Shown: positions 24,384 through 64,000 of the stretch, in pieces
How the letters are laid out: each line of letters opens with the position of its first letter
How positions within the stretch are numbered: the first letter of the stretch is position 1
Assembly (NCBI GenBank): GCA_016779205.1
Contig: JADHOC010000013.1
Location: 62,001-126,000 of the forward strand
DNA from: Planctomycetota bacterium
GTDB lineage: Bacteria; Planctomycetota; UBA1135; GCA-002686595
Reading direction: 5' to 3'
Length of the DNA: 64,000 bases
Notes under the pieces: generated by a model
The model's input: only the letters and a program-made list of their open reading frames with translations
Told to the model about the DNA's origin: nothing
Database searches by the model: none
Program-made: the position numbers and the translations under genes

Positions 24384-24634
24384 GGGATGATCCTCGGGCT
24401 GTGGTCCGTCGACGCAGGCTGGCGCGACGGCGCACAGGGGAATTCGACTCACTCTGTGGCAGAGCTTTACATGTTCCTGCTGTCAGCCCGATCCGCGGCA
24501 ACGCACTCCCTGGCGGGTGGCCTCGACCCGGGCCCCATCGACGACCGATACAGAGCGTGAGGGCGTAAGATGTGCCCCTGAACCGCCCTCGACAGGCCTC
24601 TCCCGGCCCGGTCCCAGGGCCGCTCCCCGTCTCC

Positions 24635-26407
24635 ATGGCTCTCATTCAAGGACTCTCTGTTTCCCCCGGGCTGGGCCTGGGCCCCGTGCATGTCGTGCGC
24701 GCGAGGCTGGATTCAGCGCCTATCTGGACCCTGCGTTCGGGGGAGCTGGACGCGGAGGTCGAGCGCCTCGACCGAGCCATCGCGCGGGTGATCGACGTGC
24801 TCGGAGTGCGTCAGGCCGAGGTGGCGAAGGCGGTGGGGGAACAGGATGCGGGCATCCTCGGCGTCCACCAGATGATCCTCCAGGACCCCGGCGCCCGCGA
24901 GCAGGTGGACCGCACGATCCGCGAGGAGCGAATCAACGCCGAGGCGGCCGTCGAGCGACTGATCGATCGGCTGAAGGAGACCATGGGGCGGCTCGAGGGC
25001 GACTCGGTCCGCGGGTACGCCGCGGATATCAGCGAGCCCTGGCACGCGGTCATCGCGGCGCTGATGCGCTCCGACAAGGAGACCATCTCCCAGGGGGAGG
25101 ATCGCGTGGTGATCGCGGCGGCGGAGCTGACGCCGGAGGCCGTGACCTTCCTCCCGCGCCACCGGGTCATCGCCGTGGTCACGGAGGCGGGCGGCCGCTT
25201 CTCTCACGGCGCCGTCCTCGCGCGGTCGTTCGGAATCCCCTGCGTGGTTGGGATCCCGAACCTGCTCGCGCGGCTCGAGCAGAACATGCCCGTCCTCGTG
25301 GACGGGGACAACGGAGCCGTCACCCTCGCGCCCGACGCGGCCTCCGAGGGTGAGTTCCAGCTCCGCCTCGCGCAGCGCTCTGTCCGCGAGGCAGCGCTCG
25401 CGTTACACGCCACCGAGCCCGCGGTGACCCTCGACGGCGAGACGGTGTCCGTCCTCGTCAACCTCGAGTCCGTGCGGGACCTGGAGATGTTCGAGCACCG
25501 ACGGTGTGACGGCGTGGGCCTGCTCCGGACCGAGTTCCTCTACATGGAGCGGACCGTGTTCCCCTCGGAGGAGGAGCAGTACCGGCTCTATCGGCGCATG
25601 GTCGACGCCATGGGGGACCGGTACGTCGTGATCCGAACCCTCGACATCGGCGGCGACAAGCAGCTCCCGTACTTCAAGACTCCGCGGGAGAACAACCCGG
25701 CCCTCGGCTGGCGTGGGACCCGGATCACCCTCGAGTGGCAGGACCTCCTGCGGGTCCAACTCCGAGCGATCATGCGTGCGAGCCTGCACGGTGAGGTCCG
25801 GGTGCTGCTGCCGATGATCACCTCGCTGGAGGAGGTGCGCGCGGTCCGGGCCATCTTCGACGAGACCCGGGAGCAGCTCTCGACCCAGGGGTACGATGTC
25901 GCAAGCGACATCCCCGTCGGGGTCATGATCGAGATCCCCTCGATGCTCTGGGTCCTCGACGAGGTGCTCGACCTCGTGGACTTCATCAGCGTCGGGACGA
26001 ACGACCTGGTCCAGTACCTCCTCGCGGTCGACCGGGACAACGTCTTCGTCTCGAGCCTCTACGAGCCCTTTCACCCCGCGGTCATCCGGGCGCTCGGGGC
26101 GATCGGTGACGCGGTCCGCCGTTCGGGAAAGAGCGCCTGCGTGTGCGGCGAGATGGCCGGGGACGAGGCGGTCGCCATGATGCTGGCGGGGATGGGCTTC
26201 GACTCGCTCAGCGTGGCCCCGAACTTCCTGTCGGCCCTCAAGTTCGCGGTCCGGCGCACCACGATGGCCGACGCCCGGGGCCTCGCCGAGGCCGTCCGGG
26301 CGGCCTCCACCGTGGATGAGGTCCGGGCCCTCCTGGACGAGGTGCGGGAACGGTTCCGCCAGGAGATGCTGGAGGCGGTCTCAGGGGCGGCCGCTGGAGA
26401 CGGTTGA
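24635..26407 (+). CDS. ptsI: Phosphoenolpyruvate-protein phosphotransferase (PTS enzyme I)
   Basis: 590 residues from the ATG at 24635; an upstream in-frame ATG at 24572 would add a Pro-rich lead. It transfers phosphate from PEP to HPr at the head of the PTS. The phosphohistidine motif GGRFSHGAVLAR has H191 (E. coli H189). DGVGLLRTEFLYMERT, RTLDIGGDKQLPYF, the GWRGTRI turn and SVGTNDLVQYLLAVDRDN follow. The active-site CGEMAGDE has C504 (E. coli C502). No HPr gene is adjacent, and no EIIBC permease is in the window. A PTS EIIA domain does occur on the transporter at 58115-60217, so regulatory use is possible. Confidence 0.95.
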   Translation: MALIQGLSVSPGLGLGPVHVVRARLDSAPIWTLRSGELDAEVERLDRAIARVIDVLGVRQAEVAKAVGEQDAGILGVHQMILQDPGAREQVDRTIREERINAEAAVERLIDRLKETMGRLEGDSVRGYAADISEPWHAVIAALMRSDKETISQGEDRVVIAAAELTPEAVTFLPRHRVIAVVTEAGGRFSHGAVLARSFGIPCVVGIPNLLARLEQNMPVLVDGDNGAVTLAPDAASEGEFQLRLAQRSVREAALALHATEPAVTLDGETVSVLVNLESVRDLEMFEHRRCDGVGLLRTEFLYMERTVFPSEEEQYRLYRRMVDAMGDRYVVIRTLDIGGDKQLPYFKTPRENNPALGWRGTRITLEWQDLLRVQLRAIMRASLHGEVRVLLPMITSLEEVRAVRAIFDETREQLSTQGYDVASDIPVGVMIEIPSMLWVLDEVLDLVDFISVGTNDLVQYLLAVDRDNVFVSSLYEPFHPAVIRALGAIGDAVRRSGKSACVCGEMAGDEAVAMMLAGMGFDSLSVAPNFLSALKFAVRRTTMADARGLAEAVRAASTVDEVRALLDEVRERFRQEMLEAVSGAAAGDG

Positions 26408-55628: not shown

Positions 55629-55756
55629 GGCTGCGACGTCCTGACGCCTCGGGGCCCCTCCAGGGGCGTGCGGAGACTCTCGGCCGGGCGGAGGGTCCCC
55701 TGGTGACGGCGCGCGGGTACCCTCTCGGGCTCACTCCTTGCCGCCCTTCCCCCCAG

Positions 55757-57157
55757 GTGACCCCCTTGGACCGCCTCACTCTCGACTACACGAACGTCCT
55801 CTCCGACGCCATCGGCCCCAAGCACGGCCTCGAGCTGGCTGACCTCGAGGCGCTCTCCGAGCGCTCCGAGGCCGCGCTCGCCGCCGTCCAGGCCCGGCGG
55901 GACCAGGACCTGCGCTGGTTGGACCTGCCTCACCAGTCCGCCGTCCAGCAGGACGTCATGGACTACGCAGCCTCGGTTCAGGGCCAGTTCGAGAACGTGG
56001 TCGTCCTCGGCATCGGCGGGTCGGCCCTGGGGAACCGCGCCCTGCACCGGGCGCTCTCGAGCCCCTTCCACGACATCCAGCCGCCGGCGGGCATGCCCCG
56101 GCTCTACGTGCTGGACAACGTGGACCCCGACCTCGTGGGCGAGTTCCTGGACACGGTGGACCCCAAGACCTGCCTCTTCAACGTCATCTCCAAGTCCGGG
56201 TCGACGGCGGAGACCATGAGCCAGTTCCTGGTGCTGCGTGAGCGCCTGATCGCGGCCCTGGGGAAGGAGGGGCACCGCCGACACATGGTCGTGACCACCG
56301 ACGCCGAGAAGGGCGTGCTGCGCCCGATCGTCGAGTCGGAGGGCTACCAGTCCTTCATCGTCCCCGACGGCGTGGGCGGCCGCTTCAGTGTGCTCTCCCC
56401 GGTGGGCCTGGTGTCCAGCGCCCTGATCGGCATCGATGTGCCGGGCCTCCTGGCCGGCGCCGCCGACATGGATGAGCGCTGCCGCGAGGCGCCGCTCATG
56501 GAGAATCCCGCGCTCGTCTACGCGGCCATCCAGTACCTGATGCAGGAGAAGAAGGGGAACCCGATGTCGGTGACCTTCTCCTACAGCCAGCGCCTCGCCT
56601 GCGTGGGGGACTGGTACGCCCAGCTCCTCGCGGAGTCGATCGGCAAGCGCCTCTCCCGTGATGGTGAGGAGGTCTTCGCCGGCCCGACCCCGGTCTCTGC
56701 CATCGGCGTTACCGACCAGCACAGCCAGGTTCAGCTCTACGTGGAGGGTCCCCACGACAAGTGGTTCACCCTCCTCTCCGTTGATCGGCCGGACCACACG
56801 GTCGAGATCCCGAGGGCCTTCGAGGAGCACGACGCGCTCGCCTACCTGGGCGGTCGCACCATGAATGAGCTCTTCGCCGCGGAGCGCGACGGGACTCGCA
56901 TCGCGCTGACCGACGCCAAGCGCCCGAACGTCACCGTGTCCTTCCCCGCGGTCACCGCCCACCACGTGGGCCAGTACCTCTACCTGATGGAGCTCGCCGT
57001 CGCCGTGATGGGGGAGCACTACGGGGTGGACGCCTTCGATCAGCCTGGCGTCGAGGCCGGCAAGGTGGCCGCGTACGCCCTGATGGGGCGGAGCGGCTAC
57101 GAGGAGCGCCGCGCCGAGATCGAGAAGAGCCTCAGCGGACCCCGGCGGACGGTCTGA
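55757..57157 (+). CDS. pgi: Glucose-6-phosphate isomerase
   Basis: 466 residues from a GTG at 55757. An earlier in-frame GTG (55703) gives a longer, Pro-rich lead. It interconverts glucose-6-phosphate and fructose-6-phosphate. Family elements are VVVLGIGGSALGNRAL (glycine-rich sugar-phosphate site), ISKSGSTAETMSQ, a VPDGVGGRFSVLSPVG segment with the conserved Arg/Gly, and the late C-terminal sequence (QHSQVQLYVEGP). Size is that of the shorter bacterial type. The uspA-like gene follows in the same direction after only four bases, suggesting an operon with the transporter fusion. Confidence 0.93.
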   Translation: MTPLDRLTLDYTNVLSDAIGPKHGLELADLEALSERSEAALAAVQARRDQDLRWLDLPHQSAVQQDVMDYAASVQGQFENVVVLGIGGSALGNRALHRALSSPFHDIQPPAGMPRLYVLDNVDPDLVGEFLDTVDPKTCLFNVISKSGSTAETMSQFLVLRERLIAALGKEGHRRHMVVTTDAEKGVLRPIVESEGYQSFIVPDGVGGRFSVLSPVGLVSSALIGIDVPGLLAGAADMDERCREAPLMENPALVYAAIQYLMQEKKGNPMSVTFSYSQRLACVGDWYAQLLAESIGKRLSRDGEEVFAGPTPVSAIGVTDQHSQVQLYVEGPHDKWFTLLSVDRPDHTVEIPRAFEEHDALAYLGGRTMNELFAAERDGTRIALTDAKRPNVTVSFPAVTAHHVGQYLYLMELAVAVMGEHYGVDAFDQPGVEAGKVAAYALMGRSGYEERRAEIEKSLSGPRRTV

Positions 57158-57161
57158 GCCC

Positions 57162-58052
57162 TTGGATACCCTCGAGCACATGGTCGTGGGCGTCAGCCTG
57201 CACCCCCGAACGGGCGTCCCCGACGTCGGCTCGGTGCGGGCCGCACGTCAGGCGGCCTGGCTCGCCTCGCGGACCGGCGCGCGCGTCACGTTGCTCCACG
57301 CCGCCTGGGCGGAGGATGGCAGCGGGCCCGTCGAGCTCGCCGCCAAGGCCGCGGAGGAGCTCGAGGAGCTGCGCGGGCTCGTGGAGGCGGACGGGGCCAG
57401 CGCGGCGATCCGGATCGTCGAGGACTACCCCTGGCTCGCGCTCTGCCGCGCGGCCCTCGATGATGGGGCGGAGCTCGTCCTCGCGGGCAAGCGCTCCGTC
57501 GCCGAGCGGGGCCGGAGGCAGATCGGGAGCACGGCGGTCAAGCTGCTTCGCAAATGCCCGGTGCCGGTCTGGCTGGTCAAGCCGGACCACGACCTGAACC
57601 ACCGCCACGTGCTGGCGTGTACGGACTTCTCGCCCGTCACCGACGAGGCGCTCGCGGCGTCCGCGTGGCTGGCCGCGCAGTCCGACGGAGAGCTGCACCT
57701 GCTCCACGGCTGGAACCTCACCTGGTCGGAGCAGCGGGCCGCTGCGGACCTTTCCGAGGAGGACTACGCGGCGCGGGTGGAGGACGCACGGGTCCGCGCG
57801 CTCGCCTCGCTCGAGCGGCAGGCGGACGTCCTGGACGTGGACCCGACGCTGCACCTCGAGCGCGGAGACCCGCACGTCCAGATCCTCGAGAAGGTGGAGC
57901 AGGAGCGCCCGGACGTCCTGGTCCTCGGCAGCCTCTCGAAGGGCGGGCGCCCTGGCTTCGATGTGGGGACCGTGGCGGAGCGGGTGCTCCCCCAGGTCGA
58001 GGAGTCGATCCTCTGCTTCAAGCCCAAGGACTTCGTCTGTCCGGTGTCCTGA
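57162..58052 (+). CDS. Tandem universal stress protein (UspA family)
   Basis: 296 residues from TTG at 57162; an ATG at 57180 would give a six-residue shorter protein. Two UspA-type domains: the first (about 1-142) with VVGVSLHPRTG, an ARVTLLHAAW strand and LAGKRSVAERGRRQIGSTAVKLLRKCPVPVWLV; the second (about 143-296) with HVLACTDFSPVTDEAL and DVLVLGSLSKGGRPGFDVGTVAERVL. The second domain's G-S-L-x-x-G-G-R-x-G pattern suggests a partly preserved nucleotide-binding site. It lies between pgi and the APC transporter fusion and may act on or with the transporter. Confidence 0.82.
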   Translation: MDTLEHMVVGVSLHPRTGVPDVGSVRAARQAAWLASRTGARVTLLHAAWAEDGSGPVELAAKAAEELEELRGLVEADGASAAIRIVEDYPWLALCRAALDDGAELVLAGKRSVAERGRRQIGSTAVKLLRKCPVPVWLVKPDHDLNHRHVLACTDFSPVTDEALAASAWLAAQSDGELHLLHGWNLTWSEQRAAADLSEEDYAARVEDARVRALASLERQADVLDVDPTLHLERGDPHVQILEKVEQERPDVLVLGSLSKGGRPGFDVGTVAERVLPQVEESILCFKPKDFVCPVS

Positions 58053-58114: not shown

Positions 58115-60217
58115 ATGGCACAGAGCGCTGAAACAGGGAAGCTCACGAAGGAGCTGCGCCTGCTCGATGTGTACGCCCTGGCGACCGGAGCCACGCTCTC
58201 GGCGGGGCTCTTCCTCCTGCCGGGGATCGCCGCGGGCCAGGCTGGCGCGGCGATCACGCTCTGCTACCTGATCGCCGCGATCCCCCTGGTCCCGGCGGTC
58301 CTCTGCAAGGTCGAGCTGGCCACGGCGATGCCGAAGGCCGGCGGCACCTACTACTTCCTCGACCGGAGCCTCGGACCCCTGGCGGGCACGGTGGGCGGGA
58401 TCGGCACCTGGCTGGCGCTGATCCTCAAGACGTCCTTCGCCCTGGTGGGCCTGGGCGCTTACGTCTCGCTCTACCTCGAGCCCAGCCCGCTGCTGACGAA
58501 GTCCATCGCCGTCGGCTTCGCCCTGCTGTTCGCCATCGTGAACGCCCTCGGTGCGAAGAAGACCGCCGTGTTCCAGCGGCTCCTGGTGGGTGGGCTGATG
58601 ATCATCCTCACGGTCTTCTCCGTCCTCGGCCTCCCGGAGATCGACCCCGCCGCATTCAGCGGCTTCTTCGCCTCCGGGCCGGACGCGATCATCGCCACGG
58701 CGGGCACGGTCTACATCTCCTACGTGGGTGTCACCAAGGTCATCAGCGTGGCCGAGGAGATCAAGGACCCGGAGAAGACCCTCCCGCGCGCGGTCTTCCT
58801 CTCCATGCTCACCGCGGTGGTGATCTACCTGGTGACCACGTCGGTGATGGTCGGCGTGGTTCCGATGGCGGAGCTCAGCGGCAGCGAGACGCCCATGGCC
58901 CAGGCGGCCGAGGTCATCGCAGGCAAGCTGGGGATGGCGGTGATCACCCTCGCGGCGGTCCTCGCGTTCTTCTCGGTGGCCAACGCCGGCATCCTCAGCG
59001 CGTCGCGCTACCCGATGGCGATGGCGGGGGACAGCCTGCTGCCCCCGTCGCTCGCGCGCCTCGGCGGTCGAGGGACCCCGACCCGCTCCATCGCGCTGAG
59101 CGTGGGCATCGTCATCGCCATCGTCCTCTTCCTGGACCCCCTCGGGATCGCGAAGCTCGCGAGCTCGTTCCAGCTCTTCATCTTCGCGCTCGAGTGCCTC
59201 GCGGTCATCGTGATGCGCGAGAGTGGCCTCAGCTCCTACGACCCGGGTTTCCGGACCCCCCTGTACCCCTGGCTCCCGCTCTTCGGGATCTTCGCGCCCT
59301 TCTTCCTGATCGCGGCCATGGGGCTCATGCCGACGCTCTTCAGCCTCGGCCTCGTGGCAGGAGGCGTCGCGTGGTACTGGACCTACGCGAAGGGCCGGGT
59401 GGAGCGCCGGGGCGCGGTCTTCCACGTGTTCGCGCGGCTGGGCGAGCAGCGCCACGAGGACCTGGACTCGGAGCTGAGGGGGATCCTGAAGCAGAAGGGG
59501 CTCAGGGACGAGGACCCCTTCGATCAGGTGGTGGTCACGGCCTCGGTCATCGACCTCGGCGAGAGAGAGGACTTCGACCTGCTCGTGGGCCGCGCGGCGA
59601 GCGCGCTGCACGCCCGGACCGGCACGGACGCGAAGACCTTCGTGGACGGGTTCACCGAGGGGACCAAGACTGGCGCCACCCCCGTCTCGAAGGGCGTCGC
59701 CCTCCCACACATGCACCTGGAGGGCCTCGATCGCCCCTTCCTGGTGCTGGCCAGGAGCCGGGCGAGCCTGACCATCGCAGGCGGCGACGTCTTCGGGCAG
59801 CAGACCAGCACCGACGGCGTGCACGCCGTGTTCTTCCTGGTGAGCCCCGCCGGGGACCCGAGCCAGCACCTGCGGATGTTGGCCCAGCTCGCGAGCAGGA
59901 TCGACGAGGACCGCTTCATCGACGAGTGGTTGAGCGCGGACAACGAGGTCCAGCTGCGGGAGATCTTCCTGCGGAACGAGCGGTACATCTCCATCGAGGT
60001 CAAGCCCGGCCACCCGGCCGAGGCGCTCGCCGGCTGCCGGGTCCGGGAGCTCAGCCTCCCGGAGGAGTGCCTCGTGGTCGCCGTCCGCCGCGCTGGCCGG
60101 ACGCTCGTCCCGCGCGGGGAGACCGTCCTCCTGAGCGGCGACCGGCTCCTCGTCATCGGTGAGCCGGTGCCCATCAGCGAGCTATACGGCCGCTTCGGAA
60201 AGCCGAGCGGGACCTGA
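58115..60217 (+). CDS. APC-family transporter fused to PTS EIIA and RCK_C domains
   Basis: 700 residues. Residues about 1-440 are an APC-superfamily amino acid/polyamine permease with about twelve membrane helices (SAGLFLLPGIAAGQAGAA, KAGGTYYFLDRSLGPLAG, EEIKDPEKTLPRA). Residues about 465-625 form a PTS EIIA type 2 (fructose/mannitol) domain with the likely phosphohistidine H532 in KGVALPHMH. Residues about 630-700 are an RCK_C/TrkA-C ligand-binding domain (YISIEVKPGHPAEALAG, GETVLLSGDRLLVIG). All three parts look complete. The UspA gene is 63 bases upstream. The transported solute is unknown; regulation by phosphorylation is inferred. Confidence 0.85.
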   Translation: MAQSAETGKLTKELRLLDVYALATGATLSAGLFLLPGIAAGQAGAAITLCYLIAAIPLVPAVLCKVELATAMPKAGGTYYFLDRSLGPLAGTVGGIGTWLALILKTSFALVGLGAYVSLYLEPSPLLTKSIAVGFALLFAIVNALGAKKTAVFQRLLVGGLMIILTVFSVLGLPEIDPAAFSGFFASGPDAIIATAGTVYISYVGVTKVISVAEEIKDPEKTLPRAVFLSMLTAVVIYLVTTSVMVGVVPMAELSGSETPMAQAAEVIAGKLGMAVITLAAVLAFFSVANAGILSASRYPMAMAGDSLLPPSLARLGGRGTPTRSIALSVGIVIAIVLFLDPLGIAKLASSFQLFIFALECLAVIVMRESGLSSYDPGFRTPLYPWLPLFGIFAPFFLIAAMGLMPTLFSLGLVAGGVAWYWTYAKGRVERRGAVFHVFARLGEQRHEDLDSELRGILKQKGLRDEDPFDQVVVTASVIDLGEREDFDLLVGRAASALHARTGTDAKTFVDGFTEGTKTGATPVSKGVALPHMHLEGLDRPFLVLARSRASLTIAGGDVFGQQTSTDGVHAVFFLVSPAGDPSQHLRMLAQLASRIDEDRFIDEWLSADNEVQLREIFLRNERYISIEVKPGHPAEALAGCRVRELSLPEECLVVAVRRAGRTLVPRGETVLLSGDRLLVIGEPVPISELYGRFGKPSGT

Positions 60218-61747: not shown

Positions 61748-61926
61748 GGCAGGGAAGATCACCGGAGCATGGTCCGGAGAGTTCACAGCGTCCCTTGCTC
61801 CTGCTGCCCCTGCAATTGCGGGTTCTACGGGCGGGGCCGCGGGAAGATCCCTGCGCCCGACCCGGGGACTCCACCGGAGGCACGGTTGATGCATCGCGGT
61901 GGGTCGGGTTAGCGAAACCCCTGAGC

Positions 61927-64000
61927 ATGACCCAGGTTCTCCGACAGTTGCTGCCCGAAGACCTCGCCCGGAGGTGCCTGAGCCCCGATGTCGAGCCCCG
62001 GGCCGCGGGATCCCTTGTCTTGTTCTGGGTCCGGTCCGCCATGCGGGCCGACTCCAACCCGGCCCTCGAGGCCGCCTGCGCGGCCGCCCGCAGCCTGGAC
62101 CTGCCGCTGCTGGTCTATCAGGGGCTCGACGACCGTCACCCCTTCGCCTCGGACCGCGTCTGGACCTTTGTCCTGCAAGGGGCGCGCGACCTCGCCCGAG
62201 ACCTCGAGGCGCGGGGCGTGCGCTATGCCTTCCACCTCCGTCGACCCGGACACACCCAGCCCGCGTTGAAAGACCTGGCGCGCGACGCGGCGTTGATCTT
62301 CTGCGACGCCGTGCCCGTGGCGCCGCTCACGGCCTGGACCGCCGCGCTCGCGGCGTCCGCCGAGGCTCCCGTGGTGGAGGTCGATGCTGCCTGCGTCGTT
62401 CCGCTCACGGCGACGCGCAAGCCCTACGAGCGCGCCTTCGCCTTCAAGAACGCGACCAAGAAGGCGCGCAAGGAGTGGCTCGGCTGGGAGCCGGAGGAGC
62501 AGCCCGCCCCCAGGCCCTACCCGGGAGCCCTCGGGTTCGAGCCGGTGGACTTCGAAGCCGCGGATGTCGCCGCCCTCGTCGCGGCCTGCGACGTGGATCA
62601 CGGCGTCGGCCCGGTGGCCCATACGGTGGGGGGGGCTCGTGCGGGCGAGGCCCGCTGGGCGGCCTTCCGAGACCAGCGCCTGACGCGCTACGCCCGGGAT
62701 CGCAACGATGCCCTGCGCCCCGGCGTGTCACGCCTCTCCGCGTACTTCCACTTCGGCATGCTCTCGCCGCTCAGGGTCGCTCGTGAGTGTGTGGGGATCG
62801 GCGGCGGGGGTGCGGACAAGTTCCTCGATGAGCTCCTCGTCTGGCGCGAGTCGGCGTGGCACTTCTGCCACCACGGGGGCGTGGACCTCGACTCCCTCGA
62901 CGCCATCCCTGAATGGGCGCGCGAGACCCTCGACGCCCACCGGGACGACCCGCGACCGGAGGTTCGCTCGGCGCTCGAGCTGGAGCTGGCGCACACCGGG
63001 GACGACCTCTGGGATGCCGCACAGGAGTCCCTCCTCCGGCACGGCGAGCTCCACAACAACGTCCGGATGACCTGGGGGAAGGCGCTCCTCCCCTGGTCGC
63101 CGTCCCCGGAGGCGGCCCTCGCGCGGCTGGTGGAGCTCAATCACCGATACGCCCTCGACGGCAGGGATCCGTCCTCCTACGGCGGGCTGCTCTGGTGCCT
63201 GGGGCAATTCGACCGCCCGTTCCCTCCCGCGGAGCCGATCACCGGAGAGCTGCGCGGACGCTCGACGGAGTTCCACGCCTCCCGGTTGGACACGGTGAAG
63301 TACAGGTCCCGTTGCACCTCGCCGTCCGCGCCGAGGCGTCGGATCGCCGTGGTGGGGGCTGGCCTCGCGGGGCTCGCGGCTGCGGAGGCCCTCGACGCCG
63401 CGGGGCACGGGGTGGTGGTCTTCGACAAGGGGCGCGGCGTGGGCGGTCGGACCTCGACCCGCAGGGCCGACGCGACGGGCTTCGACCACGGCGCCCAGTA
63501 CTTCACGGCGAGGGACCCGAGGTTCCGGCGTGTGGTGGACATGTGGGTCGAGGAGGGCGTCGTGGCGCCCTGGGAGGGGCGCCTCGCCGTGCTCGACGAG
63601 CCCGCCGTGATCCGGGCCAGGGAGGAGCGCGCGGGCGACGTTCGATTCGTGGGGGTGCCGGGGATGAACGCCATGGCGAAGCGGATCGCCGGGGACCTGG
63701 ACGTCCGCTGCGGAAGCCGCGTGGAGTCCCTCCAGCGGACCGGCGGAGGGTGGGAGGTCGCCCTCGAAGGCGGGAGGTCGCAGGCGGACTTCGACCTGGT
63801 CCTCGTCACGACGCCGCCCGCCCAGGCCGCTCCGCTGCTCGCCGGGTCGCCGGAGCTGCAGGGGCTCGCGGAGTCCGTGTCCATGGACCCCTGCGTCGCG
63901 CTCATGGTGGCCTTCGATGGACCCATCGACGTCTCTTTCGATGGCGCCTTCGTCAACCACGGGCCCCTCTCCTGGATCTGCCGCAACAGCTCCAAGCCGG
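61927..64000 (+). CDS. Class II CPD photolyase fused to an FAD-dependent oxidoreductase (partial, runs off window)
   Basis: The frame is open from the ATG at 61927 to the window end (691 codons seen). Residues about 1-460 are a class II photolyase: an N-terminal antenna-like fold, ARDRNDALRPGVSRLSAYFHFGMLSPLR, then the FAD-binding segments RESAWHF, DDLWDAAQ (359-366) and YALDGRDPSSYGG. Residues about 470 onward form a Rossmann-type flavoprotein: VVGAGLAGLAAAEALDAAGHG with GxGxxG at 477-482 and GRGVGGRTSTRR, as in renalase-like amine oxidases. It repairs UV dimers with light, and the second domain is of unknown role. The C-terminus is outside the window. Confidence 0.88.
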   Translation, partial: MTQVLRQLLPEDLARRCLSPDVEPRAAGSLVLFWVRSAMRADSNPALEAACAAARSLDLPLLVYQGLDDRHPFASDRVWTFVLQGARDLARDLEARGVRYAFHLRRPGHTQPALKDLARDAALIFCDAVPVAPLTAWTAALAASAEAPVVEVDAACVVPLTATRKPYERAFAFKNATKKARKEWLGWEPEEQPAPRPYPGALGFEPVDFEAADVAALVAACDVDHGVGPVAHTVGGARAGEARWAAFRDQRLTRYARDRNDALRPGVSRLSAYFHFGMLSPLRVARECVGIGGGGADKFLDELLVWRESAWHFCHHGGVDLDSLDAIPEWARETLDAHRDDPRPEVRSALELELAHTGDDLWDAAQESLLRHGELHNNVRMTWGKALLPWSPSPEAALARLVELNHRYALDGRDPSSYGGLLWCLGQFDRPFPPAEPITGELRGRSTEFHASRLDTVKYRSRCTSPSAPRRRIAVVGAGLAGLAAAEALDAAGHGVVVFDKGRGVGGRTSTRRADATGFDHGAQYFTARDPRFRRVVDMWVEEGVVAPWEGRLAVLDEPAVIRAREERAGDVRFVGVPGMNAMAKRIAGDLDVRCGSRVESLQRTGGGWEVALEGGRSQADFDLVLVTTPPAQAAPLLAGSPELQGLAESVSMDPCVALMVAFDGPIDVSFDGAFVNHGPLSWICRNSSKP

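Follow-up and report, generated by a model that had tools for sequence, protein, structure and literature searches.

The window, i.e., the whole 64,000-nucleotide stretch of DNA that was analysed, carries a single reading frame on the forward strand (58115–60217, ATG start) encoding a product of 700 amino acids, in which an APC permease domain is followed by a PTS EIIA domain and an RCK_C domain. The genes and features considered here are listed below with the evidence for each.

58115..60217, + strand: APC-EIIA-RCK_C transporter, 700 aa (ORF, Pfam, full-length relatives, structural model)
58154..59329, + strand: APC permease domain, residues 14–405, AA_permease_2 (Pfam, Foldseek match to GkApcT, conservation)
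59609..59971, + strand: PTS EIIA type-2 domain, residues 499–619 by Pfam (Pfam, Foldseek match to EIIA-Ntr 2a0j)
59708..59710, + strand: codon of H532, predicted phosphohistidine (alignment with free EIIA proteins; 43/43 planctomycete members)
59867..59869, + strand: H585 codon, the other active-site histidine of EIIA (comparison with free EIIA proteins; conservation)
60023..60196, + strand: RCK_C (TrkA_C) domain, residues 637–694 (Pfam, Foldseek)
57162..58052, + strand: usp, tandem universal stress protein (Pfam; linkage to the transporter in close relatives only)
55703..57157, + strand: pgi, phosphoglucose isomerase, 4 bases before usp (Pfam; linkage in close relatives only)
24572..26407, + strand: PTS Enzyme I (EI), 611 aa (PEP-utilisers_N, mobile domain, PEP-utilizers_C)

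For usp (TTG) and pgi (GTG), the start codons given were assigned mechanically by ORF calling and are provisional. At the 3' side, a frame running off the end of the window (61795–63999, + strand) joins a DNA photolyase domain to a downstream NAD(P)/FAD amine-oxidoreductase domain; the same pair was observed in L010 (9453–12251), with similar reading frames in L008, L009 and L013.

Domain architecture and the PTS relay of the genome

Against a Pfam cut-off of 27 bits in each case, matches were obtained to AA_permease_2 (E = 3.6e-44, 151.8 bits), PTS_EIIA_2 (E = 2.9e-12, 47.2 bits) and TrkA_C (E = 6e-13, 48.9 bits), assigning the three parts to the APC family, to type-2 EIIA and to RCK_C, respectively. 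The EIIA match of the transporter was weaker than those of the free EIIA proteins of the genome (47 vs. 83–87 bits), and its EIIA fold starts near residue 471, ahead of the Pfam boundary at 499.

The whole-protein model was only moderately confident (pLDDT 80, pTM 0.63), and the arrangement of the domains is therefore tentative. Its N-terminal part displayed an APC/CAT fold, with GkApcT as the best Foldseek match (TMt 0.86). As Foldseek returned transporter folds only for the whole model, the EIIA/RCK_C tail was modelled separately. The tail alone yielded an EIIA-Ntr fold (TMt 0.83 to 2a0j) and matched the RCK_C folds of TrkA TM1088 and of a CpaA-type Na+/H+ antiporter-like protein whose structure was determined with c-di-AMP; many SLC4 cytosolic domains were also among its structure matches.

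H532 is supplied by a GVALPH motif and aligns with the phosphohistidine (VAIPH) of the two free EIIA proteins of the genome, and the second active-site histidine of those proteins corresponds to H585 here. The coordinates, the three domains and the role of H532 as the likely phosphohistidine, all of which had been named in an earlier note on this DNA, were thus confirmed by the reading frame, Pfam and the alignment. The same applies to the usp and pgi genes described there as lying upstream, which were found on the same strand, and to EI, for which all three EI domains were detected.

The earlier note had also suggested looking for HPr and nitrogen-PTS genes, and both HPr and PtsN were found. 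Their genes are neighbours on a different contig, where an hpf-like gene precedes them, and HPr carries the GLHARP phosphohistidine motif. EI and HPr of a PTS relay are both present in the genome, and the absence of HPr, which the earlier note had named as a refutation of its proposal, does not apply. A second free EIIA protein of this genome (L001, 1483–1950, − strand) has an intact phosphohistidine motif and lies outside the ptsN-ptsH cluster. No GAF domain was found in EI. PTS_EIIC (PF02378) had no match in the 4.3 Mb assembly, which is 90.5% complete, and the relay consequently looks regulatory; HPr kinase, represented by a single Pfam family, likewise had no match in this assembly. Planctomycete EI has been placed in a phylogenetic group otherwise made up of organisms without PTS transporters, some Proteobacteria excepted (PMC2405797), a grouping that would agree with a regulatory PTS in this genome.

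Phosphorylation of H532 is likely to be possible. The reading favoured here, which we hold to be probable, is that of an APC-family secondary transporter controlled in cis by a PTS switch. Phosphate from PEP would pass to EI, from EI to HPr, and from HPr to H532 of the fused EIIA domain, the active site being completed by H585. The phosphorylation state of H532 would then shift the seating of the EIIA/RCK_C tail against the transporter and so alter the transport rate, in a direction that is itself conjectural. A second input would come from RCK_C, by way of contacts in the dimer and perhaps of a small ligand, e.g., c-di-AMP.

Distribution of the family and the fate of H532

The cross-genome search proposed in the earlier note was carried out as a family scan of genome contigs, in which the best 80 of 297 relatives were kept, nearly all of them full length. 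Among these 80, the layout was present in Planctomycetota, Kiritimatiellae, Melioribacteraceae, Gemmatimonadales, Rhodothermota, Balneolaceae, Acidimicrobiales, Hyphomonadaceae and their relatives, Bdellovibrionales and Gammaproteobacteria, although many of the genomes are metagenome bins, so individual placements may err. APC-EIIA-RCK_C is an old and widespread family.

Within Planctomycetota, a profile of the tail matched 46 of 392 genomes. In 21 of them the E value was below 1e-60, and the remaining 25 were matched more weakly and in the EIIA part only. In eight aligned genomes of this weaker group, the chain stops after EIIA, giving an APC-EIIA form without RCK_C; the one such relative run through Pfam showed a stronger EIIA match (72.6 bits). 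RCK_C may be a later addition to an older APC-EIIA form. A Usp gene adjoins one RCK-less copy (L133).

Two further arrangements were observed. In seven loci (L037–L042 and L055), the transporter is present as two tandem copies, and in two of these (L040 and L042) H532 is retained in one copy and replaced by Phe in the other, which on sequence grounds is possibly a pair of a switchable and a non-switchable form. In six Salinibacter-like genomes (L028, L029, L032, L035, L036 and L054), an APC paralog without an EIIA match adjoins the APC-EIIA-RCK gene; the tail of the one paralog scanned (L032) matched Usp weakly.

The planctomycete members, selected by phylum and not by residue, retained both H532 and H585 in 43 of 43 cases. 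Their EIIA domains share a mean identity of 39%, and just 6 of the 152 columns do not vary, both histidines being among these six. The earlier note had regarded loss of the histidine in relatives as evidence against phosphorylation. Such loss was not seen within Planctomycetota but was common outside the phylum, where all 53 of the 88 aligned sequences without H532 were found. The other 35 carry H532, each time together with H585. Among the 53, H585 was kept in 15 and replaced by an acidic residue in 38 (37 Asp, 1 Glu).

On a quick tree of the permease part (tail left out), which has no outgroup to fix its root and several long branches of unsure position, two changes of H532 are required. The His-less sequences form two groups, the first comprising Salinibacteraceae and kin and the second Balneolaceae paralogs, Proteobacteria and Acidimicrobiales; the change of H585 to Asp accompanies the loss of H532 mostly in one of the two. 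Because the histidine is a general feature of EIIA proteins, a loss of H532 is the more economical assumption, and from the sequences H532 looks like an ancestral switch that was later abandoned in part of the family.

The presence of the relay was compared with that of the histidine in 50 sampled genomes. Both EI and HPr were present in 25 of 25 genomes with an H532 copy; the five genomes in which they were not found all hold His-less copies only. With kinship left uncorrected, this co-occurrence (Fisher p = 0.05) is a hint at most. Since 20 of the 25 genomes with only His-less copies still possess the PTS, loss of the relay does not explain the loss of H532. Co-occurrence with HPr inside Planctomycetota was also considered as evidence (43 of 45 family-carrying genomes) and was set aside as uninformative, because 375 of the 392 genomes across the phylum have HPr anyway.

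The His-less members bear on a different reading, according to which the EIIA fold acts as a scaffold or sensor that needs no phosphorylation, as in the cytosolic domain of SLC4 anion exchangers, with RCK_C as the main regulator and H532 as an ancestral leftover. These members keep the full architecture and fold, with R587, F601 and W605 invariant, and as all of this outlasts H532 in other clades, the EIIA domain can serve without phosphorylation and part of the regulation may not need phosphate. The many SLC4 cytosolic domains in the Foldseek list fit the same reading, as does the likeness between SLC4 and EIIA noted in PMC4664831. However, the retention of both histidines among only six invariant planctomycete columns would be hard to explain if they were useless, and the genome does encode EI and HPr; for the protein in the window, we consider this reading quite improbable.

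Gene neighbourhood and the transported substrate

The earlier note had joined PEP-dependent phosphorylation to a control of amino-acid uptake by glycolytic flux. The first part is supported by the relay and by both histidines, whereas the amino-acid and glycolytic parts were not borne out. As a special case of the PTS switch, uptake of amino acids tied to glycolysis through PEP nevertheless has evidence of its own. The closest solved relatives by fold and sequence are amino-acid carriers, GkApcT (5oqt/6f34) being the best PDB sequence match, and PEP feeds the relay. Moreover, pgi, usp and the transporter gene are consecutive in the window, and L008 and L010 show the same order; the record of L009 ends too early to tell.

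The linkage of pgi and usp to the transporter was, however, confined to relatives 93–98% identical. It was not found in loci from four further genera within the same family, and no steady partner of this type was seen in more distant planctomycete loci, the pgi query covering 1.5 kb flanks. As the linkage was seen only at identities of at least 93%, the pair was rejected as a functional clue of any strength. The label of an amino-acid carrier is taken over from the name of the family. In GkApcT, a lysine of TM5 has a role in proton coupling, and this lysine is not shared by all APC members; in the present protein it is replaced by Leu161, which is near-invariant in the family. K105 does not vary and K208 hardly does, and K208 (TM6) aligns with an alanine of GkApcT.

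Conserved neighbours elsewhere are ion transporters instead. The nhaA gene lies near the transporter on the same strand, mostly directly adjacent, in 7 Balneolota/Rhodothermota and 11 Alphaproteobacteria loci, six of which hold H532 copies (L027, L037, L038, L039, L041 and L087). A CPA1 antiporter was found near ten loci, and trkA-trkH directly upstream of the transporter in one (L086). Eight alphaproteobacterial loci contain sbtA, and the eight with a P-II-like gene overlap largely with them.

The sbtA loci belong to Hellea-like and related alphaproteobacteria (L064, L068, L070, L072, L075, L082, L084 and L085); in most of them, sbtA is accompanied by both the P-II-like gene and nhaA, forming what is possibly a bicarbonate/sodium gene cluster. 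In eight Phycisphaera-like loci (L015–L018, L020 and L022–L024), a gene for a large 4Fe-4S protein occupies a steady position about 1 kb downstream (e.g., L023, 9283–12576).

Judged by these neighbours, the context in Balneolota/Rhodothermota and Alphaproteobacteria appears to point to Na+/pH/bicarbonate physiology, and the context elsewhere as a whole suggests a physiological link to Na+/pH/HCO3- or to K+ more than simple amino-acid uptake. Its bearing on the window is only indirect, because it comes from other phyla and, in the alphaproteobacteria, from His-less members. Given these neighbours, the replaced lysine and the narrow pgi/usp linkage, the coupling of amino-acid uptake to glycolysis is regarded as rather doubtful.

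The trkA-trkH pair of L086 also bears on a reading in which the transporter serves K+/osmolyte homeostasis and is governed mainly by c-di-AMP bound to RCK_C. Structures similar to the RCK_C domain include RCK_C domains determined together with c-di-AMP (5f29, 4ys2), and the synthase domain DAC was found in 18 of 18 sampled genomes with an H532 copy, including the genome of the window. Nevertheless, of 28 sampled genomes sharing the architecture, 8 gave no DAC match, and some members have no RCK_C; c-di-AMP is considered unlikely as the main control.

Two proposed regulatory inputs and comparison with known systems

The PTS switch acting in cis thus remains the preferred explanation. In an extended form, the PTS phospho-switch and an RCK ligand switch would act as two inputs on one APC chain tied to ion or bicarbonate physiology, and the phospho-switch would have been retired twice with the fold kept, marking a path from EIIA to a plain regulator of the SLC4 type. 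This extended form is tentative, and we would put it below an even chance by some distance.

No description of the APC-EIIA-RCK_C architecture was found in the literature searched, most subscription journals lying outside it, and domain databases may well list the combination. If the proposal is true, PTS control extends to the APC fold, and EIIA and RCK control, which meet in trans in E. coli, are combined in one protein. The copies with and without the phosphohistidine that stand side by side in Balneolaceae (L040 and L042) make the role of the phosphate directly testable.

As in the present protein, an EIIA domain is fused to a secondary transporter in LacS, a GPH symporter. LacS belongs to another transporter family, its EIIA is Glc-like and not of type 2/Ntr, and it has no RCK_C. 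Its fused EIIA-like domain is phosphorylated by HPr, and LacS is the precedent showing that such a domain can set transport in this way (PMC10710835). In E. coli, PtsN opposes the RCK-type control of YcgO in trans, with an effect that depends on its phosphorylation state (PMC11808508), and it also acts on TrkA, as cited in PMC4664831. The likeness here is that of an EIIA-Ntr protein acting on cation transport proteins with RCK domains; in contrast, PtsN is a separate protein, while EIIA, RCK_C and the APC core of the window protein form one chain.

GkApcT, a bacterial CAT homologue, shares the transporter fold but has no EIIA/RCK tail. The SLC4 anion exchangers have a cytosolic domain of EIIA-like fold attached to a transporter (PMC4664831), but this domain is N-terminal to an unrelated transporter core, and the proteins are eukaryotic and have no PTS relay. 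LacS, with its EIIA domain on the transporter chain, and PtsN in its action on TrkA and YcgO are the nearest working analogues. Each part is known, and the combination of APC, type-2 EIIA and RCK_C would represent a variant of PTS-regulated secondary transport.
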